Below are positions 23,493 through 29,761 of a DNA stretch of 64,000 nucleotides, piece by piece. The DNA is from Methanosarcina sp. DH2 (GTDB lineage: Archaea; Halobacteriota; Methanosarcinia; Methanosarcinales; Methanosarcinaceae): NCBI RefSeq assembly GCF_020804225.1, contig NZ_WJBI01000021.1, positions 1-64,000 of the forward strand. Reading direction: 5' to 3'. Under the pieces are notes generated by a model. The model searched no databases and was not told where the DNA came from. It saw only the letters and a program-made list of their open reading frames with translations. A program made the position numbers and the translations under genes. How positions within the stretch are numbered: the stretch's first letter is position 1; each line of letters begins with the position of its first letter.

Positions 23493-24743
23493 TCACATAG
23501 GTGGTGCTGGTCTTCCAGTCATAAGATCTTCTGTGCGCTTGGCTACCTGATTCTTAAACTGTTTGATGTCTTTAGCCTGGTCGCGCTGTGCCAGCTCGCT
23601 TTTAGCTTTGCCAACTACTTCTTCACTGGGCACACCTGCTTTATTCATCTTCCACTGGAACCTGAACGTGGACCATTCATCTGCAATCTCCCTGAATCTC
23701 AGGTACTCCATGTTCTGAGGCGTAAGGTCAAGCTGCTCTTCAATTACCCGATTTACATAATCCTTGTTCGACTCAAAAACCACCAGCGGCTCGATAACAT
23801 CAGCCTGTACGATATTCCTGATATCACGGCCTTCATATTTTTCAAGAAGATTGGCACATGCCTCAAAGTGGGAGATTTCCATCCTCATAAAGTCCTCCCA
23901 GATAGCTCTTATCCTGGAATCGCTTTCAGTCTGCGCGCAGGAGAAATAAACATAAGCTTCACAGAGCTGCATGAGCGCTGACTTTTCAAGCATTGTCTCC
24001 CGAGGATCGCCGAGTAATCCATACTGGGTCACATGCTCTTCTTCAACGTCAGCAATCTCGGAATAAAGCTGCCGTGCAAGTTCATCAGAATACATGTTCC
24101 CATGAGTTTTATAGAAAAGCTCGGTCTGCTGCTCACCTGCAACAATGGTGAGGCAATTCATTTTGGTTTTGATATCAGCCGTATCTTTATTATAGTGTTT
24201 TCGCATGGTGTCGTCCGGGTGGCGGTGCTCGACACTTGTGGGTCTTCCGGGCTTCACCTCTGTTTTTCCCTGTACAACAGTATCATAGTCGCCTCCTTCC
24301 AGATAATCATAGAGGCAACTGTAGCGGTAGAGGTGATCGAAGTCCTCAAGAAGAGCGAAATCCAGAGTCTGTTTTACGTATGGATCGGACTCGTTCCTTG
24401 CAAGGTTAGCAGTGAGATCGACAGCCACCTGTTCGTACCCAAGTGTAGTCTCTATAATAGTCTGATTAGCCGGATTTAACCAGTCAACCGTTTGCTGCTG
24501 CATGGAGTCAATGCGCCGTATCAAAGCCATCTGACGCTTGATCTCTGGATCGACAGTCATTCGTTCCATGGCATGGGACATAAGAACTGAGGCATTCTCA
24601 ATCCCATTCATGAGAATTACGCGTGTCCTTGTGTATGCATCTACAGAGTTTCTGTCATACGGAGCTTTGACTATTTCCTTCCAGTTCATGAACTGCTCTT
24701 CTATCGGTATACTATCCATATTAAAAGGTTTAAACTGTGCCAT
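23493..24743 (-). CDS. Ferritin-like superfamily protein, conserved hypothetical
   Basis: 416 residues, unrecognised at gene level but with repeated di-iron-type helical motifs. GYEQVAVDL is followed about 30 residues later by LLEDFDHLYRYS. Later GEQQTELFYKTHG pairs with IADVEEEHVTQYG (ExxH), and LMQLCEAYVYFSCAQTES pairs with MRMEISHFEACANLLEKYEG (ExxH). That suggests up to three helical-bundle units of the ferritin/rubrerythrin type, possibly binding iron. No signal peptide or membrane segment. Start: two in-frame ATGs (24749 and 24743); GGAGG lies eight bases before the second, so 24743 is preferred. Divergent from the tandem membrane-protein genes at 25292 onward, which may be functionally linked. 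Confidence 0.7.
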   Translation of the reverse strand: MAQFKPFNMDSIPIEEQFMNWKEIVKAPYDRNSVDAYTRTRVILMNGIENASVLMSHAMERMTVDPEIKRQMALIRRIDSMQQQTVDWLNPANQTIIETTLGYEQVAVDLTANLARNESDPYVKQTLDFALLEDFDHLYRYSCLYDYLEGGDYDTVVQGKTEVKPGRPTSVEHRHPDDTMRKHYNKDTADIKTKMNCLTIVAGEQQTELFYKTHGNMYSDELARQLYSEIADVEEEHVTQYGLLGDPRETMLEKSALMQLCEAYVYFSCAQTESDSRIRAIWEDFMRMEISHFEACANLLEKYEGRDIRNIVQADVIEPLVVFESNKDYVNRVIEEQLDLTPQNMEYLRFREIADEWSTFRFQWKMNKAGVPSEEVVGKAKSELAQRDQAKDIKQFKNQVAKRTEDLMTGRPAPPM

Positions 24744-24749
24744 TCCCAT

Positions 24750-25291
24750 ATCCTCCAGAATTCTTTACCAGCAGGGCTCTCTGCAGGTGGCGGGTGGTCA
24801 GAACCGGTATAATTCCAGTTGCTAAATATAGAACCTGCCAAAGAGCAAAACCGTAACCTGTTGCCATAATTGCTTCGCAGAATGCCCCACACATCTGCAA
24901 TAATTCCTGCCTTAAGCTTCAACCCCGGCCGCAGGCAAGGCAACTGGCATGTAACTGGTCTTTTTTAGTTATTTTAGTGTATATTAATCTTGCTTAAATC
25001 GATTAATAGGATATATGTATAAATTTGATCTATATAAAATCCATCGTATAATAATTCCAAAATGAGTAAAGGTTTCGAGATGAGTAAACTTCAAAATAAG
25101 TAAACTTCAAAATAAGTAAACTTCAAAATAAGCAAACTTCGAGATGAGTAATATAGTTTCGATATTAGTATAATAACGAAATACTATAAAATTAACTAAA
25201 GGTACTATAACAGCGTGTTCCAGCCGGTAATGGACATGAAAACTGGGTTCTCAGGGGAAAGTAGAGCCTAAAAGGGGGAAGCAAACTTACA
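24750..25291. other. Divergent intergenic region
   Basis: About 540 bases between the ferritin-like gene and the first membrane-protein gene. It contains the tandem repeat at 25063-25151 and a very AT-rich stretch at 24965-25060 with TATATA-like strings suited to promoters. No gene. Confidence 0.4.
25063..25151 (+). repeat. 16-bp tandem repeat, about five copies
   Basis: Unit TAAGTAAACTTCAAAA, with copies at 25081, 25097, 25113 and 25129 plus partial copies at both ends (TGAGTAAAGGTTTCGAGA at 25063 and TGAGTAA at 25145). It lies 140 bases upstream of the first of three paralogous membrane-protein genes. The string AAACTTC also occurs in the ribosome-binding leaders of two of those genes. Confidence 0.75.
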
Positions 25292-26377
25292 ATGGTAGAT
25301 ACTTCAGATATGGTGATTTTCTGGGCTGTAGTTATGGCCCGCTTCTTGATACCGCTCACCATTCCTCGTTACCCTCTCCCCGGCGTGCTGGCATGCCTGA
25401 TCCTGGACGGTATCGACCAGACGATCTTCCAGCTGTTCACGAGCCTGCCTCTTGAAGGCTATCAGAGCTACGATAAATCCCTTGATGTCTATTACCTGAC
25501 CATTACGTATCTTTCGACCCTGCGCAACTGGTCGAACCTCTATGCCTTCAAGCTAAACCGCTTCCTTTTCTATTACCGTCTGGTCGGCGTCGCTGTCTTC
25601 GAACTCACACAACTACGCCCTCTGCTGCTCGTTTTCCCTAACACTTTTGAGTACTTCTTTATCTTCTATGAAACCATCCGCCTGAAATGGGATCCGAAGG
25701 TGCTGACAAAAAGCAAATTGATAACTGCTGCAGCCCTTATCTGGATTTTCGTCAAGCTGCCTCAGGAATACTGGATACACGTCGCCCAGCTGGACACCAC
25801 TGACTGGATCAGGGCAAATCCTTCAAACGCCATCATACTGATCGCCTACGCAGCGTTCCTGCTCGGTATGGCCTGGTGGTTGGTCCGGGACCTTCCTCCC
25901 ACCCGCCCGGGCCTGGAAATTGCCGCCACCCCCGTGGTAGCTGCCCCGGCTGTCCCACCCACGCCTAAAATAGGGAATGAACAGCGGGAACGCCTCATCG
26001 ATAACTCCGTGATCGAAAAAATCGTGCTGATCTCTCTCATTACCATCATTTTCGCCCAGATACTTCCGGGCGTGCGGGCAAGCAATCTCCAGCTCGCAAC
26101 AGGCATGGCTGTCCTCATCATAATAAACACAGCATTGAGCCACTGGCTTGCCAGACGTGGAACTCACTGGAAATCAATCATGAGGGAATTTGTCGTGATG
26201 TCCGCAGTAAACCTCGGTATAGTGCTTGCTTTTAATTTTCTGCTGCCCAGGTACGACGGCTCAATCAACCTCTTCAACACTCTATTTTTTGTCCTCCTCC
26301 TGACCCTGAATATAACTCTCTATGACAGGTACAAGGTTTTACATGTCAGGAACCATAAGACAGAGATAGGCAGTTGA
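25292..26377 (+). CDS. Unrecognised polytopic membrane protein, tandem copy 1
   Basis: 361 residues, about nine to ten hydrophobic segments. Blocks shared by all three copies: FWAVVMARFLIPL, IPRYPLPG, LDGIDQTIFQLFT, YDKSLDVYYLTITYLSTLRNWSN, FLFYYRLVGV, FPNTFEYFFIFYE, ALIWIFVKLPQEYWIH, then a variable proline/charged loop (about 205-235), EKIVLISLITIIFAQILPGVRA, NTALSHWLARRG and LFFVLLLTLNITLYDRY. Conserved charged and aromatic residues inside helices (Arg14, Asp36, Glu/Tyr of PQEYW) suggest a catalytic or transport role, but no named family is recognised. ATG at 25292 follows GGGGGAAGCAAACTTACA. First of three tandem paralogs, likely produced by duplication. Confidence 0.85.
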   Translation: MVDTSDMVIFWAVVMARFLIPLTIPRYPLPGVLACLILDGIDQTIFQLFTSLPLEGYQSYDKSLDVYYLTITYLSTLRNWSNLYAFKLNRFLFYYRLVGVAVFELTQLRPLLLVFPNTFEYFFIFYETIRLKWDPKVLTKSKLITAAALIWIFVKLPQEYWIHVAQLDTTDWIRANPSNAIILIAYAAFLLGMAWWLVRDLPPTRPGLEIAATPVVAAPAVPPTPKIGNEQRERLIDNSVIEKIVLISLITIIFAQILPGVRASNLQLATGMAVLIIINTALSHWLARRGTHWKSIMREFVVMSAVNLGIVLAFNFLLPRYDGSINLFNTLFFVLLLTLNITLYDRYKVLHVRNHKTEIGS

Positions 26378-26471
26378 TTTTGAGCCAAAATAATTGAGAC
26401 GTCAGGCGGAGAAAATATGGTCAGACAGCGAACTCTTTCAAGGGAACTGAACTACAAATATTTCTTACCCG

Positions 26472-26679
26472 TGAAGCTTCATTCGCTACACTGAATAGTC
26501 CCTGTCACGCTCGAATAGGGCTTAGGGATCACAGGAAATCGGAGATTTTCTGGGAGTTGCACTGCAAGTGCAACAGTATGCTGTCCTTTTCGCTCCGCTT
26601 CGCTCAAGAGGACTAAATTACGATTTCTTTTATCTGTGCAGCTTCATTCACTATACTGAGTCGTTCTTGTCACGCTCGC
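26472..26679. repeat. Local direct repeat pair around a dispersed element
   Basis: GCTTCATTCGCTACACTGA at about 26477 and GCTTCATTCACTATACTGA at about 26641, each followed by a TCCTTGTCACGCTCG-like string, flank the hairpin element at 26525-26625. The second copy continues into CGCCTGCGAGCG, a short inverted repeat. The arrangement may be a composite repeat element. Confidence 0.5.
26525..26625 (+). repeat. Dispersed repeat with perfect hairpin, copy 1
   Basis: A block beginning GGGATCACAGGAAATC and containing GTTGCACTGCAAGTGCAAC (perfect 8-bp stem, 3-base loop), then TTCGCTCCGCTTCGCTCAAGAG and ACTAAATTA. The same blocks in the same order occur at 53408-53565, 27 kb away, with only a few substitutions and an extra 60 bases between the two blocks. 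Probably a genus-typical non-coding repeat; not linked to any transposase here. Confidence 0.7.
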
Positions 26680-27035
26680 CTGCGAGCGGCCTTTCCCGTA
26701 AAAAAGAAGAGAAAAGGTGGAAGGAAAAACAATTAAAACCAGAAAGTTAAACAGCCAAAAACCCTTTCTGGATGCAAATAAAAAAGAACTAAAAATTTCT
26801 AAAAATTACTTATTTTGCTTTTCTCATTAGTCTCAGTTTCCTTCTGCTTTTTTCTTTTGAAGACATTCCAGACTGGCTGGCTGAGGGCTTATATTTGCTG
26901 AACTGAAAAGAAATGGTCTCGGGGTTAAGGATGAAATTTGTCTGGCTGACAGGCGAGCCAGGAACCATTCAGCATGTGAAGAGGGAACTGAAAGCTTTTC
27001 TCCTTTGTTCCGAAACAGATTAAACAGGTAATCAT

Positions 27036-27080
27036 AGACTACCAGTGCAGAGACTACCGGTGCAGAGACTACCAGTGGCA
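27036..27080 (+). repeat. 15-bp tandem repeat, three copies
   Basis: AGACTACCAGTGCAG at 27036, AGACTACCGGTGCAG at 27051 and AGACTACCAGTGGCAG at 27066. It is non-coding, upstream of membrane-protein copy 2. Confidence 0.7.
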
Positions 27081-27313
27081 GGGAAAATTCGCAAAAACTG
27101 ATTTAAACCCTGGAGGAAAATCAAGATATTGTGACACATCCGCAGGTAATATGTTAGTGTCGTGAGGGATAAAAATATCAAAATATAAAATTAAATAGAG
27201 AATAGTACAAATTAAGTAAAGAGATTTTAAGAGCCATTTTTCAGGCTGGACAAACTGGAAACAATAACAAACCCTTTCCGATTGGGTATTTAAGAAGGGA
27301 GGCAAACTTCATA

Positions 27314-28450
27314 ATGGTAGCTACCTCGGATATGTTGATTTTCTGGGCTGTAGTCATGGCTCGTTTTTTTATACCGCTCTCTATTCCAAAGTACCCTCTT
27401 CCCGGAATAATAGCTTCTCTGCTCCTTGACGCTGTTGACCAGACAATTTTCCAATTGTTTACGGACCTGCCTCTTGAGGGCTATCAGGGCTATGACAAGG
27501 CTCTTGATGTCTATTACCTGGCTATCACATACCTTTCAACCATGCGGAACTGGTCAAATCACTTCGCTTTTGAGGTAAATCGTTTCCTTTTCTATTACAG
27601 GCTGGTAGGAGTTGCTCTCTTCGAGTTGACCAACCTTCGTTCACTGCTACTTATCTTTCCAAACACCTTCGAGTACTTCTTTATTTTTTACGAGGCAGTC
27701 CGCATGAAATGGGACCCTAGGGTGCTTACAAAAGACAAATTAATAATTACAGCAGCCCTGATATGGATTTTCGTCAAACTGCCGCAGGAATACTGGATAC
27801 ATATAGCGAAAATGGATACAACCGACTGGATCAGAGCCAATCCTTCAAATGTATTCATTTTGATTGGGTGGACTGCAGTCATGATCGGCATGGCGTGGTG
27901 GCTGCTCAGAGATTTTCCTCCCATGAGATCGGGCTTCTCGATTGCTGCTCATCATGCAACTTTCAGATTTGACAGTTTACGAGCTGCCCGTGTGAAGGAT
28001 AATTACACGAGTAAGAGATTTTTTGATGATTTCATACACCACGAATTGATCGAGAAGATTGTGCTGGTCTCTCTTCTTAGCATAATCTTTGCACAGATTC
28101 TTCCCGAAGTCCGGGCAAACGACGTCCAGATTGCATTCGGTATGTCTATCCTTATCATAATAAACACCGAGTTAAGCCAGTGGCTTGCCAGACGCGGGAC
28201 ACAATGGAGATCAATTGTGAAGGAGTTCATCGTAATGTCTATTGTAAACCTCATCCTTGTCCTGCTCTTTGATTTCCTTCTGGCAAGGTACGAGGGTTCG
28301 ATCGACCTTCTTAACACTCTATTCTTCGTTCTTCTCCTTACCCTGAACGTAACTCTCTATGACAGATATCGGCGCGTGCATCTCTGGAGTCACGCGACAA
28401 TAACTGAGTTTGAAGAATCAAAAAAAGGGATTGAGATTAAAAATAATTGA
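27314..28450 (+). CDS. Unrecognised polytopic membrane protein, tandem copy 2
   Basis: 378 residues, homologous along the whole length to the genes at 25292 and 28649. Same landmark blocks: FWAVVMARFFIPLSIPKYPLPG, AVDQTIFQLFT, ITYLSTMRNWSN, FLFYYRLVGVALFELT, FPNTFEYFFIFYEAVRMKWDP, WIFVKLPQEYWIH, then a longer hydrophilic loop (HHATFRFDSLRAARVKDNY, about 212-235), EKIVLVSLLSIIFAQILPEVRA and LFFVLLLTLNVTLYDRYRRVH. The loop differs in length and sequence from the other copies, while the helices are kept. ATG at 27314 follows GGGAGGCAAACTTCATA. Function unknown. Confidence 0.85.
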   Translation: MVATSDMLIFWAVVMARFFIPLSIPKYPLPGIIASLLLDAVDQTIFQLFTDLPLEGYQGYDKALDVYYLAITYLSTMRNWSNHFAFEVNRFLFYYRLVGVALFELTNLRSLLLIFPNTFEYFFIFYEAVRMKWDPRVLTKDKLIITAALIWIFVKLPQEYWIHIAKMDTTDWIRANPSNVFILIGWTAVMIGMAWWLLRDFPPMRSGFSIAAHHATFRFDSLRAARVKDNYTSKRFFDDFIHHELIEKIVLVSLLSIIFAQILPEVRANDVQIAFGMSILIIINTELSQWLARRGTQWRSIVKEFIVMSIVNLILVLLFDFLLARYEGSIDLLNTLFFVLLLTLNVTLYDRYRRVHLWSHATITEFEESKKGIEIKNN

Positions 28451-28648
28451 GATCAAAAAGGATTGAAGTTCAAAGGGATTGAAGAGGAGACCGAATGTGA
28501 GAATCTGGCAGGCCAGTAAGGTTTTATGAGAAACGGAGATCACTTTTTAAGTATTTCAGTAAAATCTAGATATAAATCTGGTTTGGCCTTGAAATAAAAC
28601 TGGGAAGTTATCTGTTAAAAGGAGAGAAAAAGGGAGGCAAACTTCAAA

Positions 28649-29761
28649 ATGCCGGACGCGTCAGATATATTTATTTTCTGGGCTGTAGTTATGGCTCGCT
28701 TCTTAATACCACTCTCTATTCCGAAATATCCTCTCCCCGGAATAATAGCTTCCCTGGTCCTTGACGCTGTTGACAGGACAATTTTCCAACTTTTTACGGG
28801 CCTGCCTCTGGATGACTACCAGGGCTATGATAAAGCCCTTGACATTTATTATCTGACCATTACATACCTTTCAACCCTTAGAGACTGGTCGAACCTTTTT
28901 GCCTTCAGATTGAGCCGTTTCCTTTTCTACTACAGGTTGGTCGGCGCAGCCCTTTTCGGGATAACACATCTGCGAGCACTGCTGTTTATCTTCCCGAATG
29001 TCTTTGAATATTTCTTCATTTTTTATGAGGCAGTCCGCCTAAAATGGAACCCGCTGGTGCTTACAAAAAATAAATTGATTATCACGGCAGCTCTGATATG
29101 GATTTTCGTCAAAGTACCGCAGGAATACTGGATACATATCGCTGAAATGAGCACAACCGATTGGGTCATGGAAAATCCCGCAAACACACTCTTCTTGATT
29201 GCCTGGGATTCGGTCCTGCTTTTTATGGTTTGGTGGCTCTTGAAGGACCTACCCCCTGCCCGGCCGGGTTTTTCATTTGCTGCAGACCCTATCCCCTCCT
29301 TCCTGTCTGACGGTGCTGAAAGTGCCAGAACAAGGGAGGAGCATAAGCAGATGAAAATAGTCAATAAACTGTTATCCGAAAAGCTCGTAACCCGTGAACT
29401 CGCCGAGAAGATCATACTTATCTCTCTCCTGAGCATCATTTTTGCCGAGGTGCTCCCAGGCGTTCGGGCAAACAGCCTCCAGGTGGCAGCCGGTGTATCT
29501 ATTCTCATAGTGATTAACACCGCATTGAGCCAGTGGCTTGTCAGGCGCGGGAGGCAATGGAGGTCTATTATTCAGGAATTTGTTGTAATGTCAGTTGTAA
29601 ACTTCGGTCTTGTCCTGTTCTTTGACCTCGTGCTACCCTTACTTAATGGTTCGATTGACCTTTCTAATACCTTATTTTTTGTCCTTCTCCTTACCCTGAA
29701 CGTTACACTCTATGACAGGTACAGGCGCACGCATATCTGGAGCTATAACAACAAAAGGTGA
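28649..29761 (+). CDS. Unrecognised polytopic membrane protein, tandem copy 3
   Basis: 370 residues, third paralog of the array. FWAVVMARFLIPLSIPKYPLPG, AVDRTIFQLFTGLPLDDYQGYDKALDIYY, LSTLRDWSN, FLFYYRLVGAALFGIT, FPNVFEYFFIFYEAVRLKWNP, WIFVKVPQEYWIH and LFFVLLLTLNVTLYDRYRRTH are retained. The central loop is the longest (ESARTREEHKQMKIVNKLLSEK) and strongly charged, possibly a short helical arm. ATG at 28649 follows AAAGGGAGGCAAACTTCAAA, almost identical to the leader of copy 2. The 198-base gap from copy 2 could be cotranscribed or have its own promoter. Confidence 0.85.
   Translation: MPDASDIFIFWAVVMARFLIPLSIPKYPLPGIIASLVLDAVDRTIFQLFTGLPLDDYQGYDKALDIYYLTITYLSTLRDWSNLFAFRLSRFLFYYRLVGAALFGITHLRALLFIFPNVFEYFFIFYEAVRLKWNPLVLTKNKLIITAALIWIFVKVPQEYWIHIAEMSTTDWVMENPANTLFLIAWDSVLLFMVWWLLKDLPPARPGFSFAADPIPSFLSDGAESARTREEHKQMKIVNKLLSEKLVTRELAEKIILISLLSIIFAEVLPGVRANSLQVAAGVSILIVINTALSQWLVRRGRQWRSIIQEFVVMSVVNFGLVLFFDLVLPLLNGSIDLSNTLFFVLLLTLNVTLYDRYRRTHIWSYNNKR

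Follow-up and report, generated by a model that had tools for sequence, protein, structure and literature searches.

A putative tandem ferritin-like protein encoded beside a membrane-protein array in Methanosarcina sp. DH2

A gene on the reverse strand of contig NZ_WJBI01000021.1 of Methanosarcina sp. DH2 raises the question of whether its product is a metal protein made of fused ferritin-like helical bundles and whether it works together with the membrane proteins encoded divergently next to it, as had been proposed from the sequence alone (hereafter, the sequence-only reading). We analysed the window, meaning the whole 64,000-nt stretch that forms positions 1 to 64,000 of this contig, together with homologues from archaeal genomes and, for bacteria, from a plasmid collection. 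The roles of ferritin-superfamily members in methanogens are described as unclear (PMC8351635).

Gene product and duplicated fold

The open reading frame is real and, counted from its first ATG, extends from 23493 to 24749 (-) and encodes 418 residues. Since the GGAGG sequence lies 8 nt from the ATG at 24743 and 2 nt from that at 24749, and since most homologues begin at the same residue (MAQF, ATG 24743), we consider 24743 the better start. The 416-residue form given by the sequence-only reading is thus preferred, and its numbering is used throughout. Methanosarcina records match the window protein at 80–82% identity. The Kyte-Doolittle maximum of the 416-residue protein is only 0.79 (window size 19), indicating a soluble protein, in agreement with the earlier reading.

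Table 1. Features of the ferritin-like gene, its predicted product and the adjacent array
Feature	Coordinates	Strand	Residues	Description	Basis
Tandem ferritin-like protein gene	23493..24743	-	416 aa	Preferred ATG 24743; in-frame alternative ATG 24749	ORF; start and sequence conserved in 11 Methanosarcina orthologues, 80–87% identity
Likely ribosome-binding site	24752..24756	-		GGAGG, 8 nt before ATG 24743	Sequence
Bundle 1	24297..24638	-	36–149	Helices 36–62, 66–87, 96–116, 121–149; candidate variant site E49, D79/Q82, E104, D134/H137	AlphaFold (helices pLDDT mostly 80–95); column counts
Inter-bundle linker	24174..24296	-	150–190	PGRPT and EHRHPDD stretch; spurious ExxH at 172	
Bundle 2	23832..24173	-	191–304	Helices 191–217, 221–243, 251–272, 276–304; canonical ligand set E204, E234/H237, E262 (E/Q259), E289/H292	AlphaFold; conservation in 19 members
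C-terminal extension	23496..23831	-	305–416	Variable; low confidence beyond about residue 340; missing from short subfamily	
Three tandem paralogues	25292-29761	+	about 361–378 aa	Multi-spanning membrane proteins; no Pfam match	

Structure prediction, which had been suggested as a check for repeated four-helix bundles, returned two of them (Table 1). The AlphaFold model, built with 18 homologues, has a mean pLDDT of 78.6, with values mostly between 80 and 97 in the helices of both bundles (an earlier shallow model had reached 61.8); residues 338–389 are disordered or unreliable in it. When the two halves of the protein were aligned with hhalign, they matched over 120 columns (E=3.7e-12), with no gap over the first ~98 columns and a 3-residue indel near the end. 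The resulting register pairs E49 with E204, D79 with E234, Q82 with H237 and E98 with E253, and it pairs D134/H137 with E289/H292 if read without the indel. The claim of fused helical bundles is therefore borne out by the two predicted bundles, the internal duplication and the ferritin-type ligand motifs. Fold and duplication are well supported, and a ferritin-like tandem fold is, on the model, very probable.

The predicted links between helices B and C (residues 88–95 in bundle 1 and 244–250 in bundle 2) are ~7–8 residues long. Because such a short link spans ~30 Å at most, compared with a helix of 33 Å, an up-down-up-down topology would be more likely for the modelled bundles.

All four helical hairpins carry an acid-x29-[DE]xx[HQ] pattern, and the hairpins of one bundle are exactly 55 residues apart. 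The E-to-ExxH spacing of 30 is the same as that of the Pyrococcus encapsulated ferritin (EncFtn) PFC_05175 in the profile-search alignment. Comparison of AB with CD hairpins by hhalign gave E values of 3e-4 to 0.015, which overlap those of reversed controls (0.008 to 0.2), so homology at the hairpin level is only suggestive. An origin of the protein from four EncFtn-like hairpins, fused via two successive duplications, is conceivable and in our estimate unlikely; if true, the protein would represent a living intermediate on the way from two-helix half-ferritins to four-helix bundles, with two non-equivalent di-metal sites per chain. With its degenerate bundle 1 and its hairpin spacing, the protein would lend itself naturally to testing how bundles of the ferritin type are duplicated and diverge.

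Ligand columns and distant relatives

Conservation was followed in 19 members comprising long archaeal, bacterial and short forms, 20–87% identical to the window protein. E49, E98, H137, E234, H237, E253 and E262 are invariant in all 19, whereas columns 204 and 289 hold E or D and column 292 holds H with a single Q. At position 259 the window protein has Q where many members have E, and the invariant E262 follows one turn later. The bundle-2 set of E204, E234xxH237, E262 and E289xxH292 is shared by archaeal and bacterial members that are about 40% identical, and from the conservation of these columns a full ferritin-type set is present in nearly all members. Judged from these residues, bundle 2 most likely binds metal. 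The one departure at column 292, where Gln replaces the otherwise invariant His of helix D, was seen at locus L056.

The order E, ExxH, E, ExxH along helices A–D is found in bundle 2 of the 19 members (with one H292Q) and in a variant form in bundle 1. In the window protein, bundle 1 has no ExxH, its equivalents being D79xxQ82 and D134xxH137; across the long forms, the corresponding residues are E49, D/E79, Q82 (H in one member), E104, D134 and H137. Bundle 1 of the short forms differs, since residues 133–135 are missing from the alignment despite an ExxH at 79–82. The sequence-only reading had counted at least three spaced ExxH pairs. Three ExxH strings are indeed present, at 172, 234 and 289, of which E234/H237 and E289/H292 are genuine helix motifs, but E172/H175 falls inside the linker and is not conserved among homologues. 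The ordered E..ExxH..E..ExxH ladder is rare in shuffled sequences (P=0.006) and weighs more than the bare count of strings.

Scans against Pfam and NCBIfam gave no curated family above cut-off, the ferritin, bacterioferritin and Dps profiles included. The Pfam profiles below threshold included Rubrerythrin (PF02915, best score 18.3 bits against a cut-off of 22.8), EncFtn-like, Ferritin_2 and Mn_catalase (PF05067, E=0.12 in one member); PF22277, a likeness to encapsulated ferritin, reached a sub-threshold E=0.0009 in one member, and PF11553, relevant to the DUF3231 proteins, remained below cut-off at E=0.02 in one short-form member alone. Sub-threshold profile matches to PDB sequences comprised MJ0754 (E=0.002), EncB, symerythrin, bacterioferritin, the Pyrococcus and Nitrosomonas encapsulated ferritins and a DF1-type designed four-helix bundle, and also unrelated helical proteins such as TRF1. 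Taken together, the matches suggest a ferritin-like protein in a weak but consistent manner. Three matches were set aside: TRF1 as a chance likeness of helical profiles, ZinT (E=0.05 in Pfam, 1.4 in PDB) as a chance match outside the motif logic, and MbfA, which gave E=0.0003 yet scored 20 bits against a cut-off of 450 and has only the ExxH helix in common. Foldseek returned no match at E<=0.001 with either the shallow or the deeper model; recognisable neighbours of the deeper model included the Mn catalase KatB, a Pyrococcus ferritin-like protein, bacterioferritin and Rv2844. A literature search found no paper on tandem ferritin-like proteins.

Distribution and gene neighbourhoods

Within Methanosarcina, a near-complete gene was found in 12 of 31 genomes, and remnants in several more. 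The gene is also present in a Methanoculleus-like family (31 of 40 genomes, 32 including one fragment), in the order of genome G193 (one of four) and in one Methanosarcinales genus (5 of 31, with both long and short forms), three groups that we tentatively take to be Methanoculleus, Methanocella and Methanoperedens. Bacterial homologues of about 40% identity occur on seven plasmid records (Nonomuraea, Tistrella, Streptantibioticus, Subdoligranulum and Pandoraea), where they are annotated as hypothetical or not at all. A viral or phage origin was rejected, the only such match being one IMG/VR contig and no phage record. In the tree the archaeal long forms cluster with moderate support, and long branches meet there. 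The family is unnamed, uncurated and common to archaea and bacteria; it reaches most Methanoculleus-like genomes and about half of the complete Methanosarcina genomes.

In seven genomes (G022, G173, G142, G138, G139, G024 and G011) the gene is present as a frameshifted copy or as short pieces, some of these in fragmented assemblies. This pattern fits an accessory gene that is frequently lost.

In the window, the gene lies among genes for a dipeptidase, an aquaporin and the membrane array, whereas redox genes are found beside distant relatives. In the Methanosarcinales genus a short form and catalase HPII are encoded divergently, at two loci a gene for a CoA-disulfide-reductase-like flavoprotein follows the short form 29–32 bp downstream, and MerA-like flavoproteins are encoded near the long forms. 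The G193 locus has a lipoamide-dehydrogenase-like flavoprotein and a flavodoxin near the gene. At bacterial loci, the next gene encodes a hemerythrin (two loci) or a hemerythrin-DUF892 fusion, or is a ferritin-like gene followed by DUF892; overall, hemerythrin, DUF892, ferritin and DUF4142 genes are found at distances of a few to about 110 bp, or one gene away. The Tistrella homologue is adjoined by genes for a DUF2391 membrane protein and a DUF4142 protein (L090, 5404-6956).

No clear redox neighbour was seen at the Methanoculleus-like loci. A conserved sensor kinase, a response regulator, a trehalose-synthase-like glycosyltransferase and an Hsp20-like gene occur near the gene there (L057-L060, L074, L075), hinting at a general stress setting.

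Full-length catalase is encoded in 11 of the 12 Methanosarcina genomes with the gene and in 8 of the 19 without it (P=0.008, kinship ignored). Among genomes at least 90% complete, the counts are 11 of 11 and 6 of 13 (P=0.006, kinship again ignored).

Possible functions and comparison with known systems

The explanation that we favour as a whole, and consider reasonably probable, is that of a cytoplasmic protein with two tandem, duplicated ferritin-like four-helix bundles. Bundle 2 would hold a carboxylate-bridged di-iron (or Mn/Fe) site and bundle 1 a modified one, in which one His is replaced by Gln in most long forms and two Glu by Asp in the archaeal ones. Judging from genomic context, the protein may react with O2 or H2O2 and reduce it as rubrerythrin does, using electrons from a flavoprotein, and would as such be an accessory oxidative-stress protein. 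A role in O2 or peroxide handling, or in iron chemistry linked to it, is fairly likely from the distant neighbours, and a peroxidase rather than a ferroxidase is suggested tentatively. Several observations weigh against this explanation: the redox neighbours stem from distant relatives, the gene has other neighbours in the window, the Methanoculleus-like loci show no clear redox gene nearby, the family and Foldseek searches stayed below their thresholds, the B–C loops are unlike the long crossover of classical ferritins, and the co-occurrence P values ignore kinship. If the explanation is correct, the means of oxygen defence in methanogens would be extended by a di-metal protein with two sites.

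Alternatively, the protein could be a ferroxidase or iron buffer that oxidises Fe(II) and transiently sequesters iron together with the ferritin, DUF892 and hemerythrin neighbours. The sub-threshold matches to encapsulated ferritins, EncB and bacterioferritin are in line with this, as is the Pandoraea locus, in which the gene is followed by two ferritin-like genes. However, an encapsulin shell gene (PF04454) is absent from this genome (G000; 0 matches, with a positive M. acetivorans control), there is no sign of cage assembly, and the flavoprotein and catalase neighbours suit redox chemistry at least equally, making this alternative rather unlikely. A manganese-catalase-like dismutase, whose Mn site disproportionates H2O2 without an electron donor, would fit the catalase and DUF892 context and the place of KatB among the top Foldseek matches; with KatB TM-scores of only 0.25–0.43 of target and the single poor Mn_catalase sequence match, we regard it as improbable. 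Still more doubtful is a substrate-specific di-iron oxygenase, or another biosynthetic enzyme, with a structural bundle 1. Foldseek also lists an aldehyde-deformylating oxygenase and PaaC, where one of the subunit bundles is catalytically degenerate, and bundle 1 is altered here too, but the neighbourhoods examined contain no biosynthetic cluster and the hosts are mostly anaerobes.

The sequence-only reading had described the gene as divergent from unknown membrane proteins and as their possible partner. The arrangement is as described, with a gap of 543 bp, and it recurs in at least 8 Methanosarcina genomes. Members of the membrane family occur in 30 of 186 genomes of the order. Phyletic co-occurrence was compared within Methanosarcina: presence of the family is not associated with that of the gene (P=0.46), and an association is seen only for arrays with at least two tandem copies (P=0.007; kinship ignored in both). 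Moreover, four Methanosarcina genomes have the gene without the array, at least seven others and four genomes of another genus have the family without the gene, and G148 has both on different contigs. The plasmid collection holds no homologue of the membrane family though seven of its records carry relatives of the gene. A partnership with the array is therefore very improbable, and that part of the proposal is not supported. That the ExxH motifs are coincidental in an ordinary, metal-free helical protein is hardly credible, for although the three strings alone are near chance (shuffle P=0.03) and the composition is glutamate-rich, the ligand columns are conserved across two domains of life, the duplication is in register and the ferritin-like profile matches converge.

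The favoured tandem ferritin-like protein resembles rubrerythrin and symerythrin in its helix ligand order E, ExxH, E(xxE), ExxH and in its redox flavoprotein context; it differs in that no rubredoxin domain is seen, two bundles are fused, the B–C loop is short and the match is under the family cut-off. With ferritin, bacterioferritin and Dps it shares a four-helix bundle with a di-metal ligand motif, but those proteins have a single bundle of about 140–200 residues with a long B–C crossover (PMC13168243), whereas two bundles with links of 7–8 residues in place of that crossover are found here. The pattern E-x29-[DE]xx[HQ] in each hairpin is common to encapsulated ferritins (Pyrococcus PFC_05175, Myxococcus EncB), which are two-helix subunits compared with eight helices per chain in this protein; a role as encapsulin cargo was rejected, this genome having no shell gene. 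DUF892 (YciF) and hemerythrin HHE proteins are likewise small helical metal proteins and adjoin the bacterial homologues, although family members have no Pfam match to either. The duplicated DUF3231 proteins of Bacillus are possibly duplicated ferritin-like proteins of similar size as well.
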